A DNA stretch of 15,289 nucleotides from an uncultured Spirochaetaceae bacterium. Lineage in GTDB: Bacteria > Spirochaetota > Spirochaetia > Treponematales > Treponemataceae. The notes beneath the pieces are model-generated. The model saw nothing but the letters and a program-made list of their open reading frames with translations. It had not been told where the DNA came from and did no database searches. A program made the position numbers and the translations under genes. Below, piece by piece: positions 1 through 15,289 of this stretch; the stretch's first letter is position 1; each line of letters starts with the position of its first letter. The stretch spans positions 1-15,289 of the forward strand of contig CACYDQ010000140.1 of NCBI GenBank assembly GCA_902773215.1, read 5' to 3'.

Positions 1-586
1 CAAGAAGGGCTTGGGCAAGACTTCCGTGCTTGTCCAGTTCGGTATGGACATGCTCTTGGGCAGCAAGCAGCTTGTCCATGTGTCCTTTGACCAGAAGTCC
101 GGCAACGTCATCTCCTGGTACGACGGCATTTTCACCGAGGTCGCCAAGAAGAAGTCCCTCTCCAACGAGGCCGAGGTTAAGGATCAGATTATGCGCAACC
201 GCACGATCCTGAACTTCAACCAGGACAACTTCAACTTGGAGAAGGTCGTCAATACGCTCAATGCGCTCAAGGCCGGCGGAATTGACGTCGCCGGTGTCGT
301 GATCGACGGCGTTGACTTTGCCAAGGTGAGCGAGGAGGACTTCCAGTCCGTCGCCAACTACGCCAAGGCTACCAAGACGAGGGTCTGGGTCAGTGCGACG
401 GCTGAGAGCGACAAGCTGGAGGATTCCGCCCCCAAGAACATCCTGCCGTATTTTACGGCGGTCGTTCACTTGGTCTCCAAGAACTCCGTCACTCAGGTGG
501 AGCTTCTGAAGTTCGGTGACAAGAAGGACATCCCGACCAACTTGAAGCTGGATTCCAAGACTCTTCTGCTTACGCCGAACAAGTAA
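1..586 (+). CDS. P-loop ATPase-like protein, 5' end missing
   Basis: This is the C-terminal 194 residues of a protein whose start lies left of the window. The first visible residues read KKGLGKTS. The single base before them is c, so a preceding GGC (Gly) codon would complete a Walker A box (GxxxxGKT); that Gly is inference. About 95 residues later, VAGVVIDGVDF is a good Walker B strand (hydrophobic residues then D), and VWVSATAES follows about 30 residues on, where RecA-fold ATPases carry their next core strand. Together these suggest a compact RecA/RadA-like P-loop NTPase of roughly 200-240 residues. The partner and pathway are unknown. There is no signal peptide or membrane segment in the visible part. 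Codon use is strongly biased (lysine is nearly always AAG, Asn AAC, Phe TTC), which suggests high expression. The gene ends with TAA at 584-586 and is followed by a strong terminator, so it is the last gene of its transcript. I do not recognise a specific name. Confidence 0.8.
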   Translation, partial: KKGLGKTSVLVQFGMDMLLGSKQLVHVSFDQKSGNVISWYDGIFTEVAKKKSLSNEAEVKDQIMRNRTILNFNQDNFNLEKVVNTLNALKAGGIDVAGVVIDGVDFAKVSEEDFQSVANYAKATKTRVWVSATAESDKLEDSAPKNILPYFTAVVHLVSKNSVTQVELLKFGDKKDIPTNLKLDSKTLLLTPNK

Positions 587-1032: not shown

Positions 1033-1853
1033 ATGTACAGGCCAGATTGGGACATCGATATCTATATGAATGACTATAACGGCAGTGCGCAGCATAAAGA
1101 GCTGATGGAAAAACTGCGGGAATTGCTCAGCAAGGTCTGGGAACTTGACTTTGAAAACCAAGGCGGCGGCGAACTGCATGCGTACGCGGGCGGACGAAGC
1201 CTTCAGTACGGGCTGATAGTCGGTTGGGATGACTTATTTCCCAAAAAGCATTCGTTCACGATAGAGGCCTCGGAGATAGTCGGCGGCGATGACGAATACG
1301 ATGAAGACGACGACGGGGACGGCAAGGGGACTACATCGGCGTGGTCAGCCGGAACGACGCAGAGGACTTCATCATAAAGCCGGACCCTGCCGAGGGAACG
1401 TTCGGCGGTCTCCGCATGGGCGGGGACATTACGGGGAAATACGTTGATGCTTACATCAAGAAAGGCAGGTACGTCGGGGCCGGGGAAATAATCAGCCCGG
1501 AGGAAGACCTTGAGCACGCGGTAGTCAGCAGCATCGTGCAGTGCGGGGACGGCGAGGATGACGAGGGTGACCTCTTCCGTTTCCGTCTGGGGGAAGCACT
1601 GCCGCCCGTGAGCGTCAGCATCCCCGAGGGCGTGACGGAAATCGGCGGGAGTGCGTTCCAGGGCTTCACGTCGCTCGCCTCTATCAGCATACCTGCCAGC
1701 GTGACGGAAATCGGCTGGAGTGCGTTCTCTGGCTGCGAGGCTCTTGCGGAAATCCACTATGCGGGCAGCAAGGAGCAGTGGTACGCCGTGCAGAAGGGCG
1801 AGGACTGGAACAAGGACGTTCCCGCCACGGACGTGCTCGTCCGCAAGGACTAG
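1033..1853 (+). pseudogene. BspA-like leucine-rich-repeat protein, frameshifted
   Basis: Two overlapping frames make one gene. The first starts at ATG 1033 after AAGGAG (1019-1024, 8-nt spacing) and encodes about 99 meaningful residues ending in an acidic tract (DDEYDEDDDGDGKG). It then runs into a meaningless tail that stops at 1377. Near 1326-1329 the sense passes into the next frame (DYIGVVSRNDAEDF...), which continues to TAG at 1851-1853. Restoring one G to the GGGG run (1326-1329) gives a continuous protein of 273 residues. The C-terminal third has two 23-residue LRR_5 units of the Treponema/BspA type (IPEGVTEIGGSAFQGFTSL, then IPASVTEIGWSAFSGCEAL), capped by a typical IHYAGSKEQWYAV end. 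No signal peptide is seen, unlike secreted BspA proteins, so the product would be cytoplasmic. The N-terminal domain is unrecognised. The alternatives to decay are a sequencing error in the G run or, less likely, programmed -1 slippage. Confidence 0.75.
1630..1727 (+). repeat. Near-identical LRR units, 69-bp period
   Basis: The 29 bases at 1630-1658 and 1699-1727 differ at one position and lie exactly 69 bp (23 codons) apart. They encode the GVTEIGxSAF / SVTEIGxSAF core of two consecutive leucine-rich repeats. Such DNA identity points to recent duplication or gene conversion between units. Confidence 0.85.
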
Positions 1854-1944: not shown

Positions 1945-3015
1945 CTAGCGGGCTGCCGCCAGCTCCTCGCCCAGGCGGGCCACGTCCGCAAGGGAAAGAC
2001 CGGTTACCTGCGCTATCTGCTCATGGGTTCCAAGCCCCATCGTCAGCATGTTCCGGGCGTCCTCCTTCTTGCCAAGCTCGATACCTTCTTCCATGCCTTC
2101 TCGCCGCCTGTTGCGGTCGTATTCCTCTTGGTCAAATTCCGTCAAGCTCATGTTCATCACCTCCATCTTCTGTGATTTGAAGAAGCCGTCAAGGTAGTTT
2201 TCCTTTATGGCGTAGTCGACGGCTTCTCCGACAGCGGCTTTTTTCGGCATCCCTGTCTTCAGGTTGTTTTTTACGCGATCCACGTAACTGCAATAATCAT
2301 ACAACGCCTTGCACTTTTTCAGCAAGCCCTCGTTGTGCTTTCCGCCGATGTTTATCACTTTCGCCGTCCACTCAAATCCCTTCCCGCTGCCAGCAGGCAC
2401 AAAGGCGTCGGAGAGCCGCTGCTCAGACACGTCAGGAAGCTCCCTGTCGCCATTGTAGAAGACGACGAAGCTGGGGGAAGGAATCTTCACGAGCTTTGAG
2501 CCGAAGAGGTCCAGCCCCCGGGCGGAGAGATTCATTTGATACAACTGCGCGAAGTACATGAGACCGCGCAAGGGCATGTTCGGGTTGAACGTCGATTGTT
2601 GTTCATATAGGTTCATCTGACTGCCTCCGTGAGTTTCCGCATAGCGGAAACTCATAAGCTTCCCGTAGGGAAGCGGGTTCATCTGGCTGCCTATGAGGAA
2701 TGAGATATCGTTCTTCATCGTGACGTAAATCACATTCTCTATCGTCGTCAGCTTGAGCTTGTTCGGGTCAGTGTACGCCGTGCCGTTCAGGGCATTGTAG
2801 AGGTCAAGCCGCCAGCGTTTGCTTTCCTCCGTCGTATCACCGAAAATCTTTTTGAACAGCCTGTCCTTGTACTCTCGGACAGGCAAGGGGGAATCCTGAT
2901 GTATCACGATTGCTGGCCGGGCAAGGCTCCCGGACCGGGGCGGATTGGGCGGTGCGGCATCCGGCTGGGCAGGGAGGGGCTGGGCAGACTGCCCCAGAAT
3001 CTCTTCTTCTTTCAT
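1945..3015 (-). CDS. Rpn family recombination-promoting nuclease / putative transposase
   Basis: The product is 356 residues, starting at ATG 3015. This start has AAGGAG (3022-3027) six bases upstream and is preferred over an in-frame ATG 25 codons earlier that would lie in the palindrome-rich spacer. Residues 11-35 are Pro/Ala-rich linker. The PD-(D/E)XK nuclease core follows: YKDRLFKKIFG (49-59), NDISFLIG with the likely catalytic Asp103, and NLYEQQS with the Glu138-x-Gln140 pair, then the family's MPLRGLMYFAQLYQ helix (147-160). The C-terminus has the usual RxxGMEEGIELGKKEDARNM hinge and a short helix-turn-helix-like segment (GTHEQIAQVTGLSLADVARL, 329-348). Rpn proteins cleave DNA and are linked in E. 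coli to RecA-independent recombination; they are abundant in treponemes and are not true transposases. A 22-residue insertion (about 109-130) separates Asp103 from Glu138; whether the enzyme remains active is uncertain. It stands alone on the minus strand, convergent with the LRR gene. Confidence 0.9.
   Translation of the reverse strand: MKEEEILGQSAQPLPAQPDAAPPNPPRSGSLARPAIVIHQDSPLPVREYKDRLFKKIFGDTTEESKRWRLDLYNALNGTAYTDPNKLKLTTIENVIYVTMKNDISFLIGSQMNPLPYGKLMSFRYAETHGGSQMNLYEQQSTFNPNMPLRGLMYFAQLYQMNLSARGLDLFGSKLVKIPSPSFVVFYNGDRELPDVSEQRLSDAFVPAGSGKGFEWTAKVINIGGKHNEGLLKKCKALYDYCSYVDRVKNNLKTGMPKKAAVGEAVDYAIKENYLDGFFKSQKMEVMNMSLTEFDQEEYDRNRRREGMEEGIELGKKEDARNMLTMGLGTHEQIAQVTGLSLADVARLGEELAAAR
2610..2692 (-). 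mobile_element. 66-bp palindromic element inserted in frame in the Rpn gene
   Basis: GGTTCATCTGACTGCCT (2610-2626) recurs as GGTTCATCTGGCTGCCT (2676-2692), 16 of 17 bases identical and 66 bp apart. Between the copies lie two perfect hairpins: GAGTTTCCGC-ATA-GCGGAAACTC (2631-2653) and GCTTCCC-GTA-GGGAAGC (2658-2674). In the protein this gives GSQMN twice, at residues 109-113 and 131-135, with a palindrome-encoded stretch between. Deleting 66 bp would restore a normal Rpn spacing from Asp103 to Glu138. The arrangement resembles the in-frame palindromic elements of Rickettsia genes. Calling it mobile is inference; an internal duplication is the alternative. Confidence 0.6.
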
Positions 3016-3058
3016 ACGCTGCTCCTTACATATAGTTTTTGTTTGAGCCACAGGTGAA

Positions 3059-3096
3059 TTCCCGTGGTGCGGAAGGCATCTGACTCCCAACGGGAA
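3059..3096. repeat. Inverted repeat TTCCCGT / ACGGGAA
   Basis: TTCCCGT (3059-3065) and ACGGGAA (3090-3096) are perfect inverted copies 24 bp apart. The inner part also holds TCCC-AAC-GGGA (3085-3095). Read on the minus strand it contains GGGAGTCAGATG, which matches 11 of 12 bases of the GGCAGTCAGATG flank of the insertion in the Rpn gene. Confidence 0.55.
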
Positions 3097-5173: not shown

Positions 5174-5845
5174 ATGTACGCAGGCATTAAGGCGGTGGCG
5201 TTTGACATTGACGGGACCCTCTACCCATCTTGGCGGCTCTATATACGGATAGCCTTCTATTTTGTGCGCCACCTGCGCTTCTTCCTCAAGTACAACAAGG
5301 TCCGCAAGATCCTGCACCAGACCGCCCCCCTGCCGGATTTCTTTGAGTACCAGGCCCGGCTTTTGGCCAAGGAGCTGGATTGCGAGAGCGATTATGCCAA
5401 GCTCCTCATAAATGAGGTCTGCTACGAGGGGCTCAAGCCCTACTTCTTCAAGATAAAGACTTTCCCCGACGTGTACCAGACCCTCGTCGCCTTCAAGTCC
5501 GCCGGGCTTAAAATCGGGATTATGTCGGACTTCCCGCCGGAGCAGAAGGGCCGGCTCTGGGGCCTTCGCACTCTCTGCGACGTGTGCATCGGCAGCGAGG
5601 AATCCGGCGCGCTCAAGCCTTCCGTCTATCCTTTCGGAATACTCGCCAAGAAGCTGGGGCTTGCCCCGGCGGAAATCCTCTATGTGGGCAACAGCATCAA
5701 GTACGACGTGCGGGGGGCCAAGGGCTACGGCATGAAGACCGCCTACCTGATGCAGGGCTTCAGGAAGCTTCTGGGGATAAAGTGCCCGGAGGCGGACATC
5801 TCCTTCTCCAGCTACCGGCAGCTGAAAAATATTGTTTTAAACTAG
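5174..5845 (+). CDS. HAD superfamily hydrolase (probable phosphatase)
   Basis: The 223-residue product is a soluble haloacid-dehalogenase-fold enzyme. Motif I is AFDIDGT with the nucleophile Asp11 and acid Asp13. Motif II is Ser118 in GIMSD, motif III Lys148 in GALKPS, and motif IV is VGNSIKYDVRGAK (172-183). In motif IV an Asn replaces the more usual Asp after Gly, and Asp178 remains to bind Mg2+. A helical cap lies between residues 20 and 95. This pattern fits small-molecule phosphatases such as nucleotide or phosphoglycolate phosphatases, but the substrate cannot be told from sequence. ATG 5174 follows the lepA stop with no gap; a GGGAGGA sequence (5157-5163) inside lepA can serve as ribosome site, so translation is probably coupled. 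It ends with TAG inside the first copy of an 11-bp tandem repeat. Confidence 0.92.
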   Translation: MYAGIKAVAFDIDGTLYPSWRLYIRIAFYFVRHLRFFLKYNKVRKILHQTAPLPDFFEYQARLLAKELDCESDYAKLLINEVCYEGLKPYFFKIKTFPDVYQTLVAFKSAGLKIGIMSDFPPEQKGRLWGLRTLCDVCIGSEESGALKPSVYPFGILAKKLGLAPAEILYVGNSIKYDVRGAKGYGMKTAYLMQGFRKLLGIKCPEADISFSSYRQLKNIVLN

Positions 5846-5861: not shown

Positions 5862-5873
5862 AAAGCTCAAGTA

Positions 5874-5901
5874 TGCTATAATTTAGTGCTAATGCTATAA
5901 T
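5874..5901 (+). promoter_or_regulatory. Two identical extended -10 promoters in tandem
   Basis: TGCTATAAT occurs at 5874-5882 and 5893-5901, 19 bp apart. Each is a perfect TATAAT preceded by TGn, the extended -10 form that needs little or no -35. I found no good -35 for either copy. The small palindrome TTAGTGCTAA (5883-5892) lies between them. Transcripts would start near 5889 and 5908, giving very short leaders of about 20-40 nt for the giant gene at 5928. Confidence 0.65.
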
Positions 5902-5927: not shown

Positions 5928-8900
5928 GTGATAGCTCTTCTTGGTATCGTTATATCGGTGATACTGTCTGCGGCTTTGACTGTGGGGATGCGCAGCCGGG
6001 ACAGGAACGACAACTCTCTGGATAAGGTCAAGCGGTATGCTGACAAGAGGCTGGGGGAGTTTGACGAGTACTTCAAGAAGCAGCAGGAACACCTGTCGGT
6101 TTCCGGGAACGAGCTTGAGAGCAAGGACATTGAGGCCAAGGCTGCCGTCAAGAGGCTGGAGCAACAGATCGGCGACCTGAGGGCTGATGCATCAAGCCTT
6201 CAGAATACGATAGACAGTGTGCGGTCAATCGGTACCCAATTGAAAGACTATGACGAGGTGATAAACAACCTCCTGGAGATGACCAAGAAGGTCGAGGAGA
6301 ACCTTCAGCGGGTACAGGACGAGGCCAATGTCATAGACAAGTACAATTCCCGCCTGGAGAAGCAGGACAAGACGATCGGGGCAATCGAGCGCAGGGTAGG
6401 GGAGGTGACCAAGCGCTTTTCCGAGAAGAACCTTGAGCAGCTCAAGCAGATTGGCAGCGATCTTCTGACCCAGTACGAGGAGCGGGCCAGGACGATAGAC
6501 GAGTCCACGCAGAAGTACCTGGGGGCCAACCAGGCAATCCTTGACAAGATTAATTCAGACATCAAGACGGCGTACGACAATGCCGCCGAGGCCGCCGAGA
6601 ACTTGGAGAACGATGCCTTTGACTCCCTCAAGGCCCGGTCGGAAGAGCGGCGCGGGGAGATAATCAGCAGCCTGGAGGCGGGCGTAAAGAAGCTCTCCGA
6701 CTACATAGACAGCAAGGTGCAGGGCGTGCAGAAAGACCTGCTGGACAAGACCCGTGCATTCGATGCCTCCTATGCCAAGTCCCTCAAGGACTTCGAGGGG
6801 CTTCTGGCCCAGCGCAGGGGCGAGATGTCTGCGTTCGTCGAGGGCAAGACTGCCGAACTGACGGACGACCTTGAAGAAAAGATAAACATCCTGAACGATG
6901 CCATCGCCGAGCGGACTGGGGTGCTGGACTCCACGTTCAGCGACAAGAAGGATGCGCTTGAGGATATCTTCAACAACCGGATAGAGGAAATAGAGTCTTC
7001 GTTTGACACTGTTGCCAAGGGGCTTGAGGCGCGGATCCAGCAGAAGTGCGACGAGCTTTCTTCTATCGTCAGCGGCAGCCAGTCAGACTTGGAGGAGCGT
7101 TTCTCCGACACGACCGACACGATAAACAATGCGATAAACAGCGCGATAGACAGTCTGGAAAAGCTGTACGGCCAGCGCAAGGCGGAGCTTGAAGGGCAGT
7201 TCAAGGAACAGACCCTCGGGCTTGAGGACAGCTTCAATAGGAACGTAGAGTCCATCTCGTCGCAGATTGTCGAGCGGTCGGCCTCCCTGCAGCAGACCTT
7301 TGACGCGACAACGGACGGCTGGCACAGTAAGTTCGGGGAGGAGGCCGCCAAAATTGAGAGCGAGATGGCACAGCGGTCAGCTGACTTGGAACAGCGGGCT
7401 TCGGATCTTGCGGAGGATATTGCCAGCAGGACGGGCGGCTTGCAGTCTGACCTTGAACAGCGGACCGCGAACCTTGCGGCAGACATTGCGGACAAGACCG
7501 GCAGGCTTCAGTCCGACCTTGAACAGCGGACTGCGAATCTTGCAGGCGACATTGCCAGCAGGACGGAAGGCTTGCAGTCAGACCTTGAGCAGCGGACGGC
7601 CGCCCTCGCCGGGGACATCGCGGACAAGACCGGCAAGCTTCAGTCCGACCTTGAGCAGCGGACGGCGAACCTTGCGGGCGACATTGCCAGCAGGACGGAA
7701 GGCTTGCAGGCCGACCTGGAGCAGCGGACAGCGGTCCTTGCGGGCGACATACAGGAGAAAACCAACGGCCTTCAGACAGATTTGGAAAGCCGCGCGACTG
7801 CCCTTGCGGAGAATATTGCGGCCAGGACGGAAGGCTTGCAGTCCGATCTGGAACAGCGGGCCGCGAATCTTGCCGGGGACATCGCGGACAAGACCGGCAA
7901 GCTTCAGTCCGACCTGGAGCAGCGGGCTTCGGATCTTGCGGCGGACATTGCCAGCAGGACGGACAATTTGCAATCAGACTTGGAGCAGAGGGCGGCAGCT
8001 CTTGCAGACGATATAGCCAGAAGAACGGGTGACTTGCAGTCCGATTTGGACGGAAGGACTTCTGCCCTTTCCGACAGGATTTCCTCTACCGATGCGGCGC
8101 TTCAGTCACGTCTGGACGGTGTGCTTGAGAGCGTGCAGCAGGAGTTCGACGGCAGGATTACTGCGTTTAACGAGGCCCTTGACGAGGCAAAGCGGAACGC
8201 GGATGACAGCTACAATCAGAAACATTCTGCCCTCGAGACGGCCTGGCAGGAAGCCAGCGATTTCATGAAGGCTTCTTTTGCCCAGCGTTCCGATGACCTT
8301 GAGAATGATGTCAAGAGGCGGATTGCATCTTTGAAGGATTCCCTTTCATCTGACACGGACAGCCTGGAGGAATCCCTGAACAAGCGGCTTTCCGACCTGA
8401 AGGACAGGTCTGCCAAGATTGATTCCCACATAAAGAAGGAGACCTCCGCACTTGCCAAGTCCGTGCTCGACGATCTTGGAAGGATAACGGGCGACTTGCG
8501 CAAGCAGACTGACGATGCTGTCTCCAGGTACAATGCGGAGAGCGAGTCCGATAAGGCTGAGCTTGAGGCCAAGGTCGCCGAGATTAAAGCTGCCCTTGAG
8601 GACAGGCTGAACCAGATTGCTACGGATGTCGCGGAGCGGACGGGAGCGATTGATTCCGATGCGGGAAGCCGCATAGAAGGCCTGTCATCGCAGCTGAACG
8701 GCAGGATTGATGATTTGAATTCTCTTGTTGAGGAGATAAACTCCCAGGTTGCGGGCGAGAGCGCATCGCTCCGTAACAGCGTCACCGAGCAGCTTTCTGC
8801 CGCGGCACAGCAGGCACAGGATGAGACCCGGGCGGCTGTCGAGCGGTATAATCAAGAGGCGAAGAAGTATACCGTCGAGGTGGACGAGCGTACAGGCAAC

Positions 8901-11900
8901 CTTCACGACTCCCTGAACGAGAAGCTCACGGAGCTGGAGAGCGCCATAAACGATAAGACCGGGACTCTGGAAAGTTCCTTCAATGAGAAGATTTCGGGTC
9001 TTGCTGATTCCCTTAACGGCAAGGCGGACGGAATAGAGTCTTCCCTTGCGGAACGTATGGAGGCTATTGTCGGAAGCCTTACTGACCGTGCCGATAGTGT
9101 CGAGTCTTCTTTCGTTGAAAAGATATCATCCCTTTCTGAAGCGCTTTTCGGTAAGGCTGACGGTATGCACGATGCCTTGTCGGAGAAGATTGCTTCTGTT
9201 TCCGACGAGCTTTCCGCGAAAACGGACGGGCTTCATTCTTCCTTTGAGAAGCAAATCGCGGCGATTTCTGAAGAGCTTGCAGGAAAGGCCGACGGCGTGC
9301 AGTCGTCCTTGGCAGACAAAATTGCGGCAATCTCCGATGAGCTTTCCGGCAAAGCAGACGATGTGCAGGAATCCTTGTCGGGAAAGATTGCGTCCGTTGC
9401 GGATGAGCTTTCCTCGCGGGCTGACGGCGTGCAGGCATCGCTGGCTGAGAAGATAGAGAACGTGTCCGGCGATCTGGGCGGCAGGGCTGACGGTGTGGAG
9501 CGCGGCTTCAACGAACGCTTCGAGACGATGTTCCGCACCGTGGGCGAGCGCTTTTCCGACATGGAGCGGCAGCTGGACGACAAATCCCAGAGCTTCGCTG
9601 AGGAGCTTGCCAATGCGAACGCCGCTCTTGAGTCCGGTCTTGAGGAGAAAATCAGCCGGATAAAGGAGAACATAGAGGAACGCTACGGGACTGTCGGCGA
9701 TGATGTGGACTCCCGCACTTCCATGCTGTCCCAGAACCTCGATGAATTCATATCGGGATGTAATTCCCGCCTTGAGCAGATGAACGGCGACGTTGCCCGC
9801 CAGATTGACGATTTGGAGAAGAAAGTCTCTTCTAAAACATCCTCCCTTTCTTCTGATGTGGACACCCGCATCGGCAAGCTTCAGGAGGATGTCGCCGCAC
9901 GCTCCGCCGAGGCCCTGGAGTCCTACCGGAACTTGGCGGACGGTTACATCGGTGAGGTTACGAGCCGGAGTGATGACCTGAGGAAGTCACTGGAAGAAAG
10001 CGTCTCTTCCCTGCGTGATGAAATAGAGCAGAAGACAGGATCTCTGAAAGATGACGCTGATAGCCGCATACAGAAGATTGAGGCGGATTTGGATTTTGCC
10101 GCCGCTGAGTTCAACGGAAAGGTGTCCAACATTGAGCGGACTTCCGCCGAGCGTATTGCGGAGCTGGAGAAATCCGTCGCCGAGAAGACAGACGGCATGG
10201 AGCTGACGATTGACGACAGGACCAAGGCCGCCGTCAAGGGGCTTGACGATCAGTTCGCCGAGATAGCCCAGGACATAGACAGCCGTACCAAGAACGCGCT
10301 TGACAAGTACAACAAGAGTGCGGCAGTCTACCTGAAGAACATTGAGGACTATGACGCCCGGATACAGAATACGCTCAAGAACAAGAAGGACGAGCTGGAG
10401 AAGCGGGTTAACGACTTCTCCAACGAGATAAACGCGACGATTACCGACAAGTCCACCGGGCTCAATGATGCGTTCAACGAGCGGGTCGCCAACATAAGCT
10501 CAGACCTGAGCGGTAAGATTGCATCCCTTGCCGCGAGCCTGACGACGCAGGCGCAGGACATTGAGGCGGATTTCTCCGGGAAGTTCAACGATTTGACGAA
10601 TGCACTTACCGGCAAGTATGACGCGCTCGAGGGCAAGCTGAGCGAGCGCGATTCAGCCTTGGCGGAAGATATTACCGGCAGATACGATGCGCTTGAAAAC
10701 AAGCTCGGCGAGCGGGATACTGCCTTGTCTGACGAGATTGCCGGCAAGTATGACGCGCTCGAAAGCAGACTCCGTGAGCGGGATTCAGTTCTGGCAGATG
10801 AGATTACCGGGAAGTTCGATGCGCTTGAGAGCCGTCTTGGCGAGCGTGATGTGGCGATTGCTGCCGAAATCAGGGAAAAGTACGATGCCCTTGCCGCCGA
10901 GCTTGAGGAGAAACGTGCGGGTCTTGACGAGGATATCCGCACCCGGTACGTGGAGCTTAATTCCCTGCTGAGCGGTCAGTCGCAGGATTTGACTTCTGAC
11001 ATAGAAGGCGAGATAAGCCGTCTGAATGAGTCCTTGCGGGATCGGACCGCAACGATTGGTGAGGATGTCGCCACCAGGGTTGAGATGTTGATTGACAGCT
11101 TCAAGGAGAAGTCCTCCGCGTTGGAGAAGGAGATAGACGGTCTGGTTCAGACTCTGACCGACTCCGTGACGGAGAAGACGAACGGCGTGAACAATGAGGC
11201 CGCCGCTAAGATTGTCAGGGCGACCAAGGAGTTTGAAGAGCGGAGCAATGCCCTTGATGAGAAGATAGATTCCGTCATCGCTGGCCTGGCATCCTCATTG
11301 GAAGAGAAATCCGGCAATTTGGGCAGTAACATACAGGATACCTACGACCGGCTCTCTTCGGACTTTGCCGGGAAGTACGAAGACCTTTCCTCGTCGTTCA
11401 GCGATAGGCATGACAGGCTTGCTTCAGAGTTGAACGGGGGGCTTTCTGAGCTCAACAAGTCCTTTGAGGATCTTTCTGCCCTGTCCAAGGACAAGTTCGA
11501 CACGCTTGAGTCTTCCATAGATAACAGGGTGCGGACTCTCGACGCGGCTTTTGACGGCCGGATTGCCGATCTGGACAAGTCCGTGCAGGAGCGGACGAGC
11601 ACAATCGATCAGGACGTGCAGGACAGGGTGGACTCCCTTATTGCACAGGTGGACGGCAAGGTCCAGGAGCTGGATGGTGGCGTGAACGAAAAGGTGTCCA
11701 CGCTCAACGACAGCGTGCAGAAGATTACTTCCACGATAGACCAGGATATCAAGGGGAAGATTGCCGAGCTGACCGATATGCTCGCCAGCCGCACGGGCAG
11801 CCTGGACAAGGATGTGAACGAGAAGCTGTTAGCGATAAGCAAGGTTCTGGACGGGCGGACGAACGCGCTTGCCAAGAAGCTCAATGATGAGACAGCCAAG

Positions 11901-14900
11901 ATTGACAGCGATGTCATGACCAAAATCACCGATCTCTACAAACGTGCGGAGTCCATAAACGAGGAGATGAACAAGAAGGCGACCGCCCTTGAGACTGTTG
12001 TCAAGCGCCGCCTGGTGGAGCTTGCGGAAGAGGTCAAGAGGGACACCGGAGCCGCCGTCGACGAATACCGCGCCACCTGCGACAATTACACCAAAAATAT
12101 CGAGGACAGGACTGCTGTCCTCCGTAGTGCGCTTGACGAGAAAGCGGAGGAACTGGAGAAGGAGATAAGCGAGAAGACTGCGACGCTCGATACCGTTATG
12201 AAGAACCGCTCTGACAGTTTGGATGCTTCCATCGTGGAAAGGCTGAACGAGCTTGACAGCAAGGCCAAGGCGATTAACGACGAGATTCACAGCAAGACTT
12301 CTGATTTGGCGAAGGCAGTCAGGGCCCAGCTCGAGACGATGACGAACGATGTCAAGAATCAGACATCCGCCGCCATAGAGAAATACCGCAGCACGACAAT
12401 AAACTACACGCAGAACATCGAGGACCGGACGTCTGCTCTCAGAAAGGCGTTGGACAAGAAGACCTCCGTGCTTGAAAAGGAGATAAATGAGAAGACCAAG
12501 CTGCTTGAGAACGCGCTGAACCACCAGCTTGCTGAGGTCAAGGAGCGGACCCTTGCAATCAACAGGGAGATTGCGGGCAAATCGGAGCAGTTCCAGGATG
12601 CCTTGCAGCGCGAGCTTTCTGAGCTGACGACCAATGTCACCCGGCAGACCTCACAGGCTCTGGAGAACTACAAGAACACTGCGGCTTCCTACAGCAAGGA
12701 CGTGGAGACGCGGACTGCGGAAATGCAGAACCTTCTTGATGGCAGGGTCTCTTCCCTCAGGCAGATGATTACGGATAAGACAGGTTCCCTTGAGAACGAT
12801 TTGAATAACAAGACGAGCAGCATTGAGAACTCTCTGAACAACATCACGAGCAACCTCACTTCCGAACTCAAGAAACGGACGACTACCCTTGCGCAGGAAA
12901 TTGCCAGCAAGACGGGCGGTCTCAAGAGCGAGTTCGACTCTCGGATGCAGAACCTTGAATCCGACTTCACGACCAAGACCAACATGCTCGCGGAGAAGGT
13001 CAAGAAAGAGTCTGTCGATTTGGAAACGGCGGTCAGCACGAACAACAGCGAGGTGACTGCCCGTATCAGCGATAAGGTCGATGAGCTGACAGGGCGGCTT
13101 GCGGGCAAAGTCAAAGCCTTTGAGGAGCAGCTTGACGAGAAGACGAGCGCGATTGAGAATGACTTCACAACCCGTCTCGCGGCTCTCAAGGACAGCTTCT
13201 CTTCTTCTTACGATGAGGCCAAGCGGACTGCTGATGCCTTGACGTTGGACACGCAGGGCAACACCAAGCAGCTTTCCATGCTGAACAGCACTCTGGATTC
13301 CAAAACCGCGGAGATTATCCAGCGCTATGACGGAATTTATGACCGGGCTATGAAGGATGCAGAGCTTAAGGAGAAAGAGGCCTACGAGAAATATTCCGGT
13401 CTCAGCTCCTCCAATTTGCAGAAGTACCGTGACGCGTTGCAGGGCAGGATGGACGAGATGCAGAAGTCCGTCGCCGGGACTATCGCTGACTTGCGGGCTC
13501 AGGCGGAGGATGTGCGCTCATCAGTCGAGGATTCTTTGGAGCGGCTCCGGAGCGAGTTCCAGGAGTCCGAGAAGCTTTCCAAGCTGACGGCTTCTCAGGT
13601 CGAGGAAGAGACACAGCAGGGCATGCAGCGGCTCAGCGCCTTCACTGAGGCGATAAACCGACAGCTTGCCGAGTTCGACGAGAAGGTGAGCCAGACCATG
13701 CAGGGAATTGCCTCTGAGTACGATGCCCGTGAGGCAAAGTTCCTGTCCGGCATAGACCAGCAGCTCGAAGATTATAAAAAGGAAATGGAGGGCCGCTTCA
13801 AACGCCTTTCTGCTACCGGCGGAGATGTGGACAAGCTGGAAGCGACGCTCAGGAACCTTGTAGACCGGTCGGAGAAAGAGGTTTCCGGGAACCTTGAGAA
13901 GTTCACCAACGACATAACGCAGAAGGAGAGCAGCTTTGAGGCTTCCATGAGGGAGCGATCCCAAGCATTGGCGACCGAGCTTGCACAGCTTAAGGCGGGT
14001 ATCGAGGAGCTAAAGAACAAGGCCTACATGAGCACGAGCGCGAACCTCAAGAAGTTCGAGGACAGCTTTGAGCAGGACCTCAAGCAACGTGAGCAGGAGC
14101 TTTCCAGCCACCTGATTGAGTGGAAGAACGACTTTGATATTAAGATAACCAAGATAAGCGACGAGTACGAGCAGAACAGGTTGAAGCTTGAGGGCAAGTA
14201 CATGGACGCACTCAAAAAGCGTATTGCGGAAGTTCAGGCTAAGACCGACGCGCAGGAACAGCAGTTCCAGACGACAATCCTGGACAACCAGTCCGTCATC
14301 CAGAAGCAGGTGACGAGCGTGGATCAGCAGCTGCATGACTTCATCGAGAAGTACAAGCAGGAGCTCAAGAAGACCTCCGATCAGGCCGAGGCCATCCTCA
14401 AGGAAGAGACGGACAAGTACAACCGCAAGATTGAGAACCAGATTCAGGAAAATCAGTTCACCTTTGACAAGGAGCTGGACGACCTGAAGCGGTCCTATGA
14501 CGAGAAGCAGAAGTCCAGTACCGCCGCGATTGACAGCGCGATGCAGGAATTCAACGTCTGGCAGAAGAGGCTCAGACAGCAGTTCGATGAGGCTAAGGCG
14601 CAGTTCGATGAGCAGCTCAAGGACTTCTCCAAGGATACGGCGGACCGTATGGCGGAGATTGTCGAGCAGACGGGGAATTCCGAGGGCGAGATACAGACCA
14701 ACATCCGTGATCTTGCTGCCAAGCTCCACGATGCGCTTGCCAGCTACGAGGAGGTCTCCACATCTATCCTCGCCGGGCTCAAGAAGCAGTCTGAGGACAT
14801 GCATGCCGCCAACAGGACGATTGCGGAGAATCAGAAGGACAAGCTTCTGTCTGACCTCAAGGCATACGAGCAGAAGTACAATACGCTCAACAGCCAGAAC

Positions 14901-15289
14901 CGCAAGTCCTACAACGAGATGATAAACAAGCTGAATGCCGACACGAACAATTTGCAGCTGAAGATTGGGGAAATTAATTCCAGTGTCGCAACGTTCACCG
15001 CGCAGACCGGTTTGTTCGATACTGCCCGCGAGCTTCAGGATCAGCTGTCTTCTTCGATAAAAGATCTCAAGAAGAAGATAGACGAGGTTGCTTCCTACGA
15101 AAAGGAGATTGACGAGCTCGGCGATAAGATTCGCGAGGTGGAGGCCATGCACGACAACGTGGATCGCAAGATTGGTAATTACGACTCCCAGAAGCTTACG
15201 CTCCAGACGATTGACGCGAAGTTCAACCGCTTGGTGGAGCTGAGCAACGGGATGGACACAAAGATTGCCGAGCTTACGGCTCAGAGCGA
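5928..15289 (+). CDS. Giant membrane-anchored coiled-coil protein (SpiroCoCo-like), 3' end missing
   Basis: At least 3120 codons are open, and the frame runs off the right edge. GTG 5928 is the only start that keeps the membrane segment: an in-frame TAA lies at 5922-5924, and a GGGGA ribosome site (5917-5921) sits six bases before it. Residues 2-21 (IALLGIVISVILSAALTVGM) form one membrane helix, followed by basic residues (RSRDR...KVKRYADKR). The positive-inside rule therefore predicts that the rest faces the cytoplasm. Everything after is Glu/Lys/Asp/Ser/Ala-rich coiled coil with no globular domain. Most of it is hendecad (11-residue) repeat with 4-3-4 core spacing, often in 22-residue pairs. 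I read no proline, three cysteines (residues 374, 1278, 2051) and four tryptophans (465, 773, 2732, 2878). After about residue 2450 the repeats become irregular and more Gln/Lys-rich. A single continuous helix of this length would be about 460 nm. A structural, filament-like or envelope-linking role is inference. It resembles spirochaete giant coiled-coil proteins by memory only. Confidence 0.9.
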   Translation, partial: MIALLGIVISVILSAALTVGMRSRDRNDNSLDKVKRYADKRLGEFDEYFKKQQEHLSVSGNELESKDIEAKAAVKRLEQQIGDLRADASSLQNTIDSVRSIGTQLKDYDEVINNLLEMTKKVEENLQRVQDEANVIDKYNSRLEKQDKTIGAIERRVGEVTKRFSEKNLEQLKQIGSDLLTQYEERARTIDESTQKYLGANQAILDKINSDIKTAYDNAAEAAENLENDAFDSLKARSEERRGEIISSLEAGVKKLSDYIDSKVQGVQKDLLDKTRAFDASYAKSLKDFEGLLAQRRGEMSAFVEGKTAELTDDLEEKINILNDAIAERTGVLDSTFSDKKDALEDIFNNRIEEIESSFDTVAKGLEARIQQKCDELSSIVSGSQSDLEERFSDTTDTINNAINSAIDSLEKLYGQRKAELEGQFKEQTLGLEDSFNRNVESISSQIVERSASLQQTFDATTDGWHSKFGEEAAKIESEMAQRSADLEQRASDLAEDIASRTGGLQSDLEQRTANLAADIADKTGRLQSDLEQRTANLAGDIASRTEGLQSDLEQRTAALAGDIADKTGKLQSDLEQRTANLAGDIASRTEGLQADLEQRTAVLAGDIQEKTNGLQTDLESRATALAENIAARTEGLQSDLEQRAANLAGDIADKTGKLQSDLEQRASDLAADIASRTDNLQSDLEQRAAALADDIARRTGDLQSDLDGRTSALSDRISSTDAALQSRLDGVLESVQQEFDGRITAFNEALDEAKRNADDSYNQKHSALETAWQEASDFMKASFAQRSDDLENDVKRRIASLKDSLSSDTDSLEESLNKRLSDLKDRSAKIDSHIKKETSALAKSVLDDLGRITGDLRKQTDDAVSRYNAESESDKAELEAKVAEIKAALEDRLNQIATDVAERTGAIDSDAGSRIEGLSSQLNGRIDDLNSLVEEINSQVAGESASLRNSVTEQLSAAAQQAQDETRAAVERYNQEAKKYTVEVDERTGNLHDSLNEKLTELESAINDKTGTLESSFNEKISGLADSLNGKADGIESSLAERMEAIVGSLTDRADSVESSFVEKISSLSEALFGKADGMHDALSEKIASVSDELSAKTDGLHSSFEKQIAAISEELAGKADGVQSSLADKIAAISDELSGKADDVQESLSGKIASVADELSSRADGVQASLAEKIENVSGDLGGRADGVERGFNERFETMFRTVGERFSDMERQLDDKSQSFAEELANANAALESGLEEKISRIKENIEERYGTVGDDVDSRTSMLSQNLDEFISGCNSRLEQMNGDVARQIDDLEKKVSSKTSSLSSDVDTRIGKLQEDVAARSAEALESYRNLADGYIGEVTSRSDDLRKSLEESVSSLRDEIEQKTGSLKDDADSRIQKIEADLDFAAAEFNGKVSNIERTSAERIAELEKSVAEKTDGMELTIDDRTKAAVKGLDDQFAEIAQDIDSRTKNALDKYNKSAAVYLKNIEDYDARIQNTLKNKKDELEKRVNDFSNEINATITDKSTGLNDAFNERVANISSDLSGKIASLAASLTTQAQDIEADFSGKFNDLTNALTGKYDALEGKLSERDSALAEDITGRYDALENKLGERDTALSDEIAGKYDALESRLRERDSVLADEITGKFDALESRLGERDVAIAAEIREKYDALAAELEEKRAGLDEDIRTRYVELNSLLSGQSQDLTSDIEGEISRLNESLRDRTATIGEDVATRVEMLIDSFKEKSSALEKEIDGLVQTLTDSVTEKTNGVNNEAAAKIVRATKEFEERSNALDEKIDSVIAGLASSLEEKSGNLGSNIQDTYDRLSSDFAGKYEDLSSSFSDRHDRLASELNGGLSELNKSFEDLSALSKDKFDTLESSIDNRVRTLDAAFDGRIADLDKSVQERTSTIDQDVQDRVDSLIAQVDGKVQELDGGVNEKVSTLNDSVQKITSTIDQDIKGKIAELTDMLASRTGSLDKDVNEKLLAISKVLDGRTNALAKKLNDETAKIDSDVMTKITDLYKRAESINEEMNKKATALETVVKRRLVELAEEVKRDTGAAVDEYRATCDNYTKNIEDRTAVLRSALDEKAEELEKEISEKTATLDTVMKNRSDSLDASIVERLNELDSKAKAINDEIHSKTSDLAKAVRAQLETMTNDVKNQTSAAIEKYRSTTINYTQNIEDRTSALRKALDKKTSVLEKEINEKTKLLENALNHQLAEVKERTLAINREIAGKSEQFQDALQRELSELTTNVTRQTSQALENYKNTAASYSKDVETRTAEMQNLLDGRVSSLRQMITDKTGSLENDLNNKTSSIENSLNNITSNLTSELKKRTTTLAQEIASKTGGLKSEFDSRMQNLESDFTTKTNMLAEKVKKESVDLETAVSTNNSEVTARISDKVDELTGRLAGKVKAFEEQLDEKTSAIENDFTTRLAALKDSFSSSYDEAKRTADALTLDTQGNTKQLSMLNSTLDSKTAEIIQRYDGIYDRAMKDAELKEKEAYEKYSGLSSSNLQKYRDALQGRMDEMQKSVAGTIADLRAQAEDVRSSVEDSLERLRSEFQESEKLSKLTASQVEEETQQGMQRLSAFTEAINRQLAEFDEKVSQTMQGIASEYDAREAKFLSGIDQQLEDYKKEMEGRFKRLSATGGDVDKLEATLRNLVDRSEKEVSGNLEKFTNDITQKESSFEASMRERSQALATELAQLKAGIEELKNKAYMSTSANLKKFEDSFEQDLKQREQELSSHLIEWKNDFDIKITKISDEYEQNRLKLEGKYMDALKKRIAEVQAKTDAQEQQFQTTILDNQSVIQKQVTSVDQQLHDFIEKYKQELKKTSDQAEAILKEETDKYNRKIENQIQENQFTFDKELDDLKRSYDEKQKSSTAAIDSAMQEFNVWQKRLRQQFDEAKAQFDEQLKDFSKDTADRMAEIVEQTGNSEGEIQTNIRDLAAKLHDALASYEEVSTSILAGLKKQSEDMHAANRTIAENQKDKLLSDLKAYEQKYNTLNSQNRKSYNEMINKLNADTNNLQLKIGEINSSVATFTAQTGLFDTARELQDQLSSSIKDLKKKIDEVASYEKEIDELGDKIREVEAMHDNVDRKIGNYDSQKLTLQTIDAKFNRLVELSNGMDTKIAELTAQS
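7383..8042 (+). repeat. Array 1: ten tandem 66-bp (22-residue) repeats
   Basis: Ten units start every 66 bp from 7383; an eleventh degenerate unit follows (8043-8108). The typical unit is DLEQRTANLAG followed by DIASRTEGLQS, that is two matching hendecads of the form D(L/I)xxRTxxLxx. Units 1-5 alternate in their second half between IASRT and IADKT, suggesting an older 132-bp step. About 44 bases at 7608-7651 recur without change at 7872-7915, four units apart, so the array has been reshuffled recently. Confidence 0.95.
8916..9509 (+). repeat. Array 2: nine tandem 66-bp (22-residue) repeats
   Basis: Nine units start every 66 bp from 8916. The typical unit is ADKIAAISDEL followed by SGKADGVQSSL, again two 11-residue halves with hydrophobic positions at 4, 7 and 11. 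The next unit (9510 onward) is degenerate. DNA identity between units is lower than in array 1, so this array is older or less homogenised. Confidence 0.92.
10611..10940 (+). repeat. Array 3: five tandem 66-bp (22-residue) repeats
   Basis: Five units start at 10611, 10677, 10743, 10809 and 10875. The typical unit is GKYDALESRLG followed by ERDSALADEIT. A tyrosine or phenylalanine sits at position 3 and a charged residue (D14) falls in a core position of the second half, unlike arrays 1 and 2. A sixth, diverged unit starts at 10941. Confidence 0.92.
12060..12722 (+). repeat. Long super-repeats with a Y-x9-Y motif in the coiled coil
   Basis: Three related blocks begin at 12060 (DEYRATCDNYTKNIEDRT), 12378 (EKYRSTTINYTQNIEDRT) and 12663 (ENYKNTAASYSKDVETRT). 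The spacings are 106 and 95 residues, which differ by exactly one hendecad. After the motif the blocks stay alignable for tens of residues (AVLRSALDEKAEELEKEI against SALRKALDKKTSVLEKEI). Weaker single copies of the motif occur at 8841 (ERYNQEAKKYTVEVDERT) and 10302 (DKYNKSAAVYLKNIEDYD). Confidence 0.8.

Follow-up and report, generated by a model that had tools for sequence, protein, structure and literature searches.

FipA of gammaproteobacteria is a close described counterpart of the gene reported here. According to the available sections of PMC11620751, this polar-flagellum factor consists of a transmembrane (TM) segment, a coiled region and a DUF2802 domain, through which it binds FlhF. 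Residues G110, E126 and L129 of FipA are invariant; the exchange G110A or L129A abolishes FlhF binding in V. parahaemolyticus, and the corresponding G mutant of P. putida FipA retained some binding. The same sections report FipA homologues as absent from spirochaetes. A TM + HTH (helix-turn-helix) protein, presumably the DUF6115 protein, is mentioned as part of flagellar superoperons in the available sections of PMC11607428. A further membrane-anchored flagellar assembly protein, resembling in this respect the role proposed below, is SwrB of Bacillus subtilis, which is said to activate the export apparatus via FliP (PMC4526659, available sections).

SpiroCoCo is named neither in these sections of PMC11620751 nor in those of PMC11607428. 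The family is defined by the NCBIfam models NF047514 (SpiroCoCo_N) and NF047515 (SpiroCoCo_C), with the LA_3659 family NF047516, and the model names carry no function. In the open-licence PMC papers that we searched, BB0512, LA_3659 and TP0408 included, we found no function for SpiroCoCo, in line with the first-pass annotation, which knew of none. Neither a flagellar link nor an HTH of the DUF6115/DUF2802 class in SpiroCoCo_C was found in these papers. We take BB0512 and TP0408 to be locus names of SpiroCoCo relatives; the labels Brachyspira, Borrelia, T. pallidum, Sphaerochaeta and Spirochaetia for relatives' genomes are likewise our own assumptions.

The DNA analyzed here (the window) is a stretch of 15,289 nucleotides, contig C140 of a genome of 2.69 Mb in 523 contigs that is 72% complete. 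On its plus strand, a reading frame of 3120 codons begins with GTG at position 5928 and is still open at 15287, occupying 9360 of 15289 bases (61%). Given that 3 of 64 codons are stops, the chance of an open frame this long is about e^-150 by our own arithmetic. The 87 bases at the end of the window are identical to the first 87 bases of contig C154 and in frame with them; there the frame continues to a stop after 247 codons, 28 of which belong to the overlap. Taken together, the whole gene has about 3339 codons. The two parts of the protein were analyzed separately. The features of the locus are as follows.

5174..5845, plus strand: gene for a HAD-family hydrolase, directly upstream of SpiroCoCo; the pair is conserved among relatives
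5873..5901, plus strand: two copies of ATGCTATAAT, -10-like, at 5873-5882 and 5892-5901, upstream of the start; read from the sequence
5928..15287, plus strand: SpiroCoCo gene, first 3120 of about 3339 codons, continued on C154 (L003:2-745)
5931..5987, plus strand: putative N-terminal TM segment, residues 2-20, a hydrophobic stretch read from the sequence and aligned with 17 relatives
5949..6632, plus strand: SpiroCoCo_N / LA_3659 domain, residues 8-235 (NF047514, 226.1 bits, cut-off 75)
5988..6047, plus strand: conserved juxtamembrane motif, residues 21-40, family consensus YRQLDxNNRSLEKVKRYxDR
6048..15287, plus strand: proline-free hendecad rod, core period 3.66
7383..8044, plus strand: 66-bp (22-residue) tandem array, 10 copies, about 70% alike
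9253..9377, plus strand: 66-bp tandem array, 1.9 copies
10606..10832, plus strand: 66-bp tandem array, 3.4 copies
12790..12852, plus strand: 33-bp (11-residue) tandem array, 1.9 copies
14928..15281, plus strand: first 118 positions of SpiroCoCo_C, the remainder including the HTH lying on C154
15203..15289, plus strand: assembly overlap with the start of C154, 87 identical bases

The N-terminal model was passed within the window. For SpiroCoCo_C (cut-off 125), the window part alone scored 91.3 bits and stayed under the cut-off, and the C154 continuation alone scored 201.1 bits. Hence, with C154 counted, both models are passed and the window gene is, by its profile matches, a member of the SpiroCoCo family. 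The first-pass annotation had described a frame of more than 3100 codons running from a GTG to the window edge over more than 60% of the window, had read it as a very long, membrane-anchored coiled coil, and had pointed to an HMM search for SpiroCoCo and to a stop codon beyond the contig; all of this held.

The window's own version of the juxtamembrane motif is RDRNDNSLDKVKRYADK. Among the best 80 of 176 named loci, a script placed the TM segment, the NNRSL motif and a start in 62; in the other 18, the 5' end is open or the pattern was not fitted. The inferred start of these 62 relatives precedes the motif by 19-24 residues. As the GTG of the window gene lies 20 residues ahead of it, close to the distance in relatives, this start is plausible. 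A protein search with the window N-terminus gave one distant match and no more.

Both ends are conserved among SpiroCoCo relatives and the rod is variable. Stop-to-stop frames with SpiroCoCo_C span 448 residues (f8 g12) to 9127 (G051); some frames, which may be incomplete, are shorter (327 in G111, 416 in G152, 401 in G156, 436 in G144). A search for giants that we take to be Brachyspira-like gave three matches. The frame of 327 codons in G111 (G111:C1:748335, L012) lies in a one-contig genome, so that this gene may be interrupted.

We also inspected the surroundings of the gene. Of the 67 named loci (among the best 80 of 176) with 700 bp or more of upstream sequence, 56 have a HAD gene on the same strand less than 400 bp upstream of SpiroCoCo; loci that we take to be Borrelia-like and T. 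pallidum-like have one upstream as well. The window gene is flanked by LepA and HAD and, on C154, by IspD/IspF and CarD. In G049, a single strand carries fliF, fliG, fliH, fliI, fliJ, a racemase-like gene, HAD, SpiroCoCo and SecD; in G076, fliF to fliJ are followed by five ORFs and then SpiroCoCo on the same strand. A fliG within 12 kb of SpiroCoCo was noticed in four genomes only (G049, G076, G079 and G046); the remaining genomes have SpiroCoCo without fliG linkage or on separate contigs. Elsewhere in the window, a short ORF (1341-1853, plus strand) encodes a BspA-type leucine-rich repeat (PF13306), and an ORF cut by the window start (2-586, plus strand) matches nothing in Pfam or NCBIfam at E ≤ 1e-3.

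The distribution of the family was compared with that of flagella. In a class sample of 199 genomes, FliG was found in 162 (E ≤ 1e-3), 156 of these being over the FliG cut-off. SpiroCoCo_C was over its cut-off in 150 of the 162 FliG-positive genomes of the window's class and in none of the 37 FliG-negative ones (20 directly named, the rest deduced by elimination); a recount agreed. The best E-value among the 37 was 7.7e-7, which is the level of coiled-coil noise. Counting raw matches at E ≤ 1e-3 as presence was rejected, because 7-8 of 14 control genomes match as well, none over the cut-off; presence was therefore scored by the cut-off, with inspection of the tail in borderline cases. Among the 12 FliG-positive genomes under the cut-off are seven, those of f8 g12, whose SpiroCoCo is short and carries the tail; six of these frames also include a hydrophobic start, while the seventh is cut at the locus edge. 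These loci (L157-L163) have frames of 448-509 residues, one cut at 284, and go along with a divergent FliG; the single LepA examined (G135) is ordinary. No clear SpiroCoCo was seen in five further FliG-positive genomes of the class sample (G157, G172, G184, G198, G264), all of which match FlhA.

In a phylum sample of 150 genomes, SpiroCoCo_C matched 148 at E ≤ 1e-3 and 106 over the cut-off. Here, G034 and G137 are FliG-negative but have FlhA. SpiroCoCo_C was not found in G016 and G140 though FlhA is present, and G041, G081 and G145, which also have FlhA, show weak SpiroCoCo_C matches only.

LepA was searched in nine FliG-negative genomes, and the eight usable sequences form one clade (support 95/95), indicating one loss; FlhA was found in none of the six of these genomes tested. 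A second case, from a comparison that listed 20 of 62 FliG-negative genomes, is family f73 in the window's order, which was judged on FliG alone and whose independence relies on kinship labels and not on a tree. The FliG-positive members G335, G365 and G456 (the last with a partial FliG match, E 2e-55) reach 297-332 bits with SpiroCoCo_C, which was not found in the FliG-negative G403, G444 and G466, nor in G397 with its trace FliG match (E 1.4e-4). It passes in 11 of the other 12 genomes of this comparison, the exception being G395, which has none despite FliG. The co-loss with flagella, seen in two lineages only, supports a connection between the two. Overall, a link of SpiroCoCo to flagella is well supported, and SpiroCoCo is probably a flagellar part with an unrecognized job, because the family is missing from the flagella-less spirochaetes tested.

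The flagella-less clade (G150, G169, G151, G170, G161, G155, G173 and G248) still encodes an FlhF-like GTPase; it scored 169 bits in G169 and 179 in G161, with its neighbours in frame, at a cut-off of 174. This persistence weakens the case for FlhF as sole partner of SpiroCoCo.

To characterize the rod, we analyzed the composition and periodicity of the 3120 residues encoded in the window. They contain no proline, 140 Gly, 628 D+E and 428 K+R. Of 92 windows of 66 residues each, 85 had their best hydrophobic-core period at 3.58-3.75, and 87 exceeded the 95% level of shuffled sequence. Over the whole rod, the period peaked at 3.66 (= 11/3; height 13.7, runner-up 3.05), and the autocorrelation had peaks at 11, 22, 33 and 44. 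This periodicity is that expected of a hendecad, not of a heptad, coiled coil, and so bears out the coiled coil of the first-pass annotation. The annotation's estimate of 460 nm holds only for an uninterrupted helix, and both the absence of proline and the constant phase of the hendecads agree with one; the finished protein would measure about 480 nm if fully helical. The tandem arrays suggest that the rod grew through duplication of 11- and 22-residue units.

Several matches of the rod were set aside. Apolipoprotein (PF01442) reached 513.8 bits at a cut-off of 90, Baculo_PEP_C 108.8 (Pfam cut-off 38) and ApoLp-III 72.8 (Pfam cut-off 36.3), yet these scores follow from the amphipathic 11/22-residue repeat. 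ZorA, SMC and Rad50 are look-alikes of the rod and scored far under their cut-offs. A PDB search with the rod gave no match at E ≤ 1e-10.

The length of the rod, its 11/3 periodicity and the Apolipoprotein score are also what one would expect of a cell-shape cable, or of an apolipoprotein-like amphipathic helix lying on the inner membrane, which would stiffen or curve the cell cylinder. The absence of the gene from flagella-less lineages agrees with such a function too; the flagellar link would then be an indirect one, arising from the joint loss of helical shape and flagella. We take Sphaerochaeta, likewise non-helical, to be the best-known relatives of these lineages. The excess of acidic residues speaks against a position on an anionic membrane, and a shape function leaves both the strongly conserved HTH tail and the paralogy with a flagellar protein, described below, unexplained. 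We therefore consider it rather unlikely.

The first-pass annotation had seen no globular domain, which is correct for the part in the window; the finished protein, however, ends in an HTH encoded on C154. This tail passed DUF6115 (PF19610; 30.6 bits, gathering cut-off 27; L003:2-742) and stayed under the cut-off of DUF2802 (PF10975; 28.5 bits, E 1.7e-6, cut-off 33.5), of which it covers profile positions 3-66 of 68. In 40 diverse SpiroCoCo tails, DUF6115 was matched by 35, DUF2802 by 20 and HTH_23, the best generic HTH, by 14 (E ≤ 0.01), any further family by at most five. A readable tail near GWxxxEIAxxTKLSxGEVELILEL occurs in 78 named loci (among the best 80 of 176). An AlphaFold2 model of one SpiroCoCo tail has a long helix followed by three short ones (mean pLDDT 82.5, pTM 0.41).

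An HTH at the end of a membrane-anchored rod could also tether the chromosome: the rod would join the inner membrane to HTH-bound DNA and organize the nucleoid of a long, thin cell. Indeed, the top PDB matches of the tail model in Foldseek are DNA-binding domains of the Pax and Tn3/gamma-delta resolvase type (best E 0.02, none at E ≤ 0.001), the tail profile also matches Sleeping Beauty and Pax chains among PDB sequences, and the window protein has a terminal basic run behind an acidic linker. Against this, the helix placed where DNA recognition would occur is both hydrophobic and acidic, with a mean net charge of about -2; the nearest families, DUF6115 and DUF2802, contain flagellar TM proteins; and the corresponding domain of FipA binds a protein (PMC11620751, available sections). 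Moreover, a role in the nucleoid does not predict joint loss with flagella. A chromosome tether thus appears improbable. Given the acidic recognition helix and the FipA precedent, a protein partner is favored, and the tail HTH would bind protein and not DNA. The tail profile also matched PDB 8vd6_A, a chain titled CAP REPEAT, at E 2.9e-10.

The tail profile was then scanned over 38 genomes, 36 of them with FliG, at E ≤ 1. Matches besides SpiroCoCo were absent from G244, G135 and G046. Further matches occurred in 33 flagellated genomes, and in 19 of them the best such match lay within 8 kb of flhF (0.21 expected; E-values 1e-9 to 0.14), the position of flhF being that of the best TIGR03499 match, which was over the model cut-off in 22 of 45 genomes. 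Twenty flhF loci were taken, namely 18 of the 19 together with G297 and G003, in which the flhF-linked ORF ranks behind another tail match; the window's own genome is included. An ORF with a hydrophobic N-terminus and an HTH tail was present in all 20. The next tail match was not by flhF in 14 of the 33 genomes. Four genomes (G109, G009, G149, G154) encode the same kind of small protein away from flhF, in G154 one short ORF downstream of fapA; in the three loci checked for this, the small protein lies one short ORF after fapA. In the eight of the 14 beyond G297, G003 and these four, the next match is likewise away from flhF, that of G064 being a response regulator. The flagella-less G155 and G248 had tail-profile matches at E 0.06 or worse only.

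In an alignment of the small proteins (the 20 flhF loci plus L170 and L171), 18 of 22 matched DUF6115 and nine DUF2802, and several database relatives bear both labels. Comparison of the SpiroCoCo tail profile with the small-protein profile gave a probability of 98.0 and an E-value of 2.3e-13 over 44 columns, and the single modelled member of each has three short helices in its tail. Thus, the DUF6115 or TM + HTH protein has the same type of ends as SpiroCoCo and is a paralogue in the same genomes, but has about 100-300 residues, is encoded near flhF and fapA and lacks the giant rod. The small protein of G162 is 100% identical to a Spirochaeta cellobiosiphila protein.

Like SpiroCoCo, FipA has one N-terminal TM helix, a coiled region and a C-terminal G...E..L at 0/+16/+19, and occurs with flagella. 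However, it has 163 residues in V. parahaemolyticus and is encoded just downstream of the flhF operon (PMC11620751, available sections), whereas SpiroCoCo has about 450-9100 residues and is usually encoded elsewhere; its tail, unlike that of FipA, stays under the DUF2802 cut-off, and FlhF binding by SpiroCoCo is only putative. With its approximately 3339 residues, the window gene does not correspond to a small TM protein just downstream of an flhF-flhG-fliA-che operon. The best FlhF match of its genome lies on contig C501 beside FlhA and scored 148 bits (cut-off 174). Counterparts of the FipA residues G, E and L were found in 73, 78 and 78 of 78 named SpiroCoCo tails (among the best 80 of 176), in 37, 33 and 32 of the 40 diverse tails, where the E at +16 and the L at +19 fade in deep lineages, and in 22, 22 and 17 of the 22 small proteins. 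The window protein has G, M and L at the equivalents of G110, E126 and L129. Taken alone, this motif is a weak criterion, as Rpn-type HTH tails have part of it. The window also holds, at 1945-3090 on the minus strand, an Rpn/T_den_put_tspse-like nuclease gene (29.9 bits, under the cut-off), the product of which has an HTH-like C-terminus as well. SwrB, likened by description alone, is presumably similar to SpiroCoCo in build.

The N-terminal membrane helix, the hendecad rod, the HTH tail, the kinship of this tail with a small flagellar protein and the absence together with FliG are supported by computation. Architecture, paralogy and the two co-losses support a flagellar role. With moderate confidence, we propose that the flagellar TM-HTH protein has in SpiroCoCo a giant paralogue, extended by the rod, and that SpiroCoCo serves flagellar assembly as a long tether at the membrane. 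One N-terminal helix would fix the protein in the inner membrane, and the rod (about 480 nm if fully extended) would carry an acidic, protein-binding HTH far from this anchor. The target of this HTH would be a flagellar assembly factor, either FlhF or another component of the basal body or export apparatus; SpiroCoCo would therefore act as a long-reach tether that may help to place or organize the periplasmic flagella near the cell ends. The partner (FlhF or another), the location in the cell and the reason for the rod length are what we infer here. The first-pass annotation had suggested a plain cable without a domain or a general cytoskeletal spacer; the HTH tail, the distribution and the paralogy point to flagella instead.

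The placement of a fixed set of flagella just inside each end of the spirochaete cell is an open question, for which SpiroCoCo is a concrete candidate: it is giant, phylum-wide and missing where flagella are missing, and it has a FipA-related tail in a phylum from which FipA is reported absent in the available sections of PMC11620751. The proposal gives a testable role to a family for which the open-licence PMC papers offered no function, and its members would illustrate the extent to which tandem duplication can lengthen a bacterial rod with both ends kept.

A more specific idea is that the rod serves as a flagellar landmark or spacer, its length (about 450 to 9100 residues) setting the distance of the HTH and being tuned, through the 11/22-residue duplications, to the number or layout of the periplasmic flagella; we regard this as unlikely. 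That the frame is an artefact of mis-joined or over-extended repeats, as the fragmented genome and the contig break within the gene might suggest, is very improbable, since the copies of the longest array are just about 70-77% alike, the 87 overlapping bases agree exactly and keep the frame, and genomes from the same genus and family, scored as 98-99% complete, have open frames of about 1000-2800 residues, with one of 4425 in G154.

The tether proposed here would have its longest form in G051 (G051:C1:80800-112800; L231, L232), where a frame of about 9127 residues has a hydrophobic start and an HTH end. If fully helical, this protein would measure about 1.3 micrometres.
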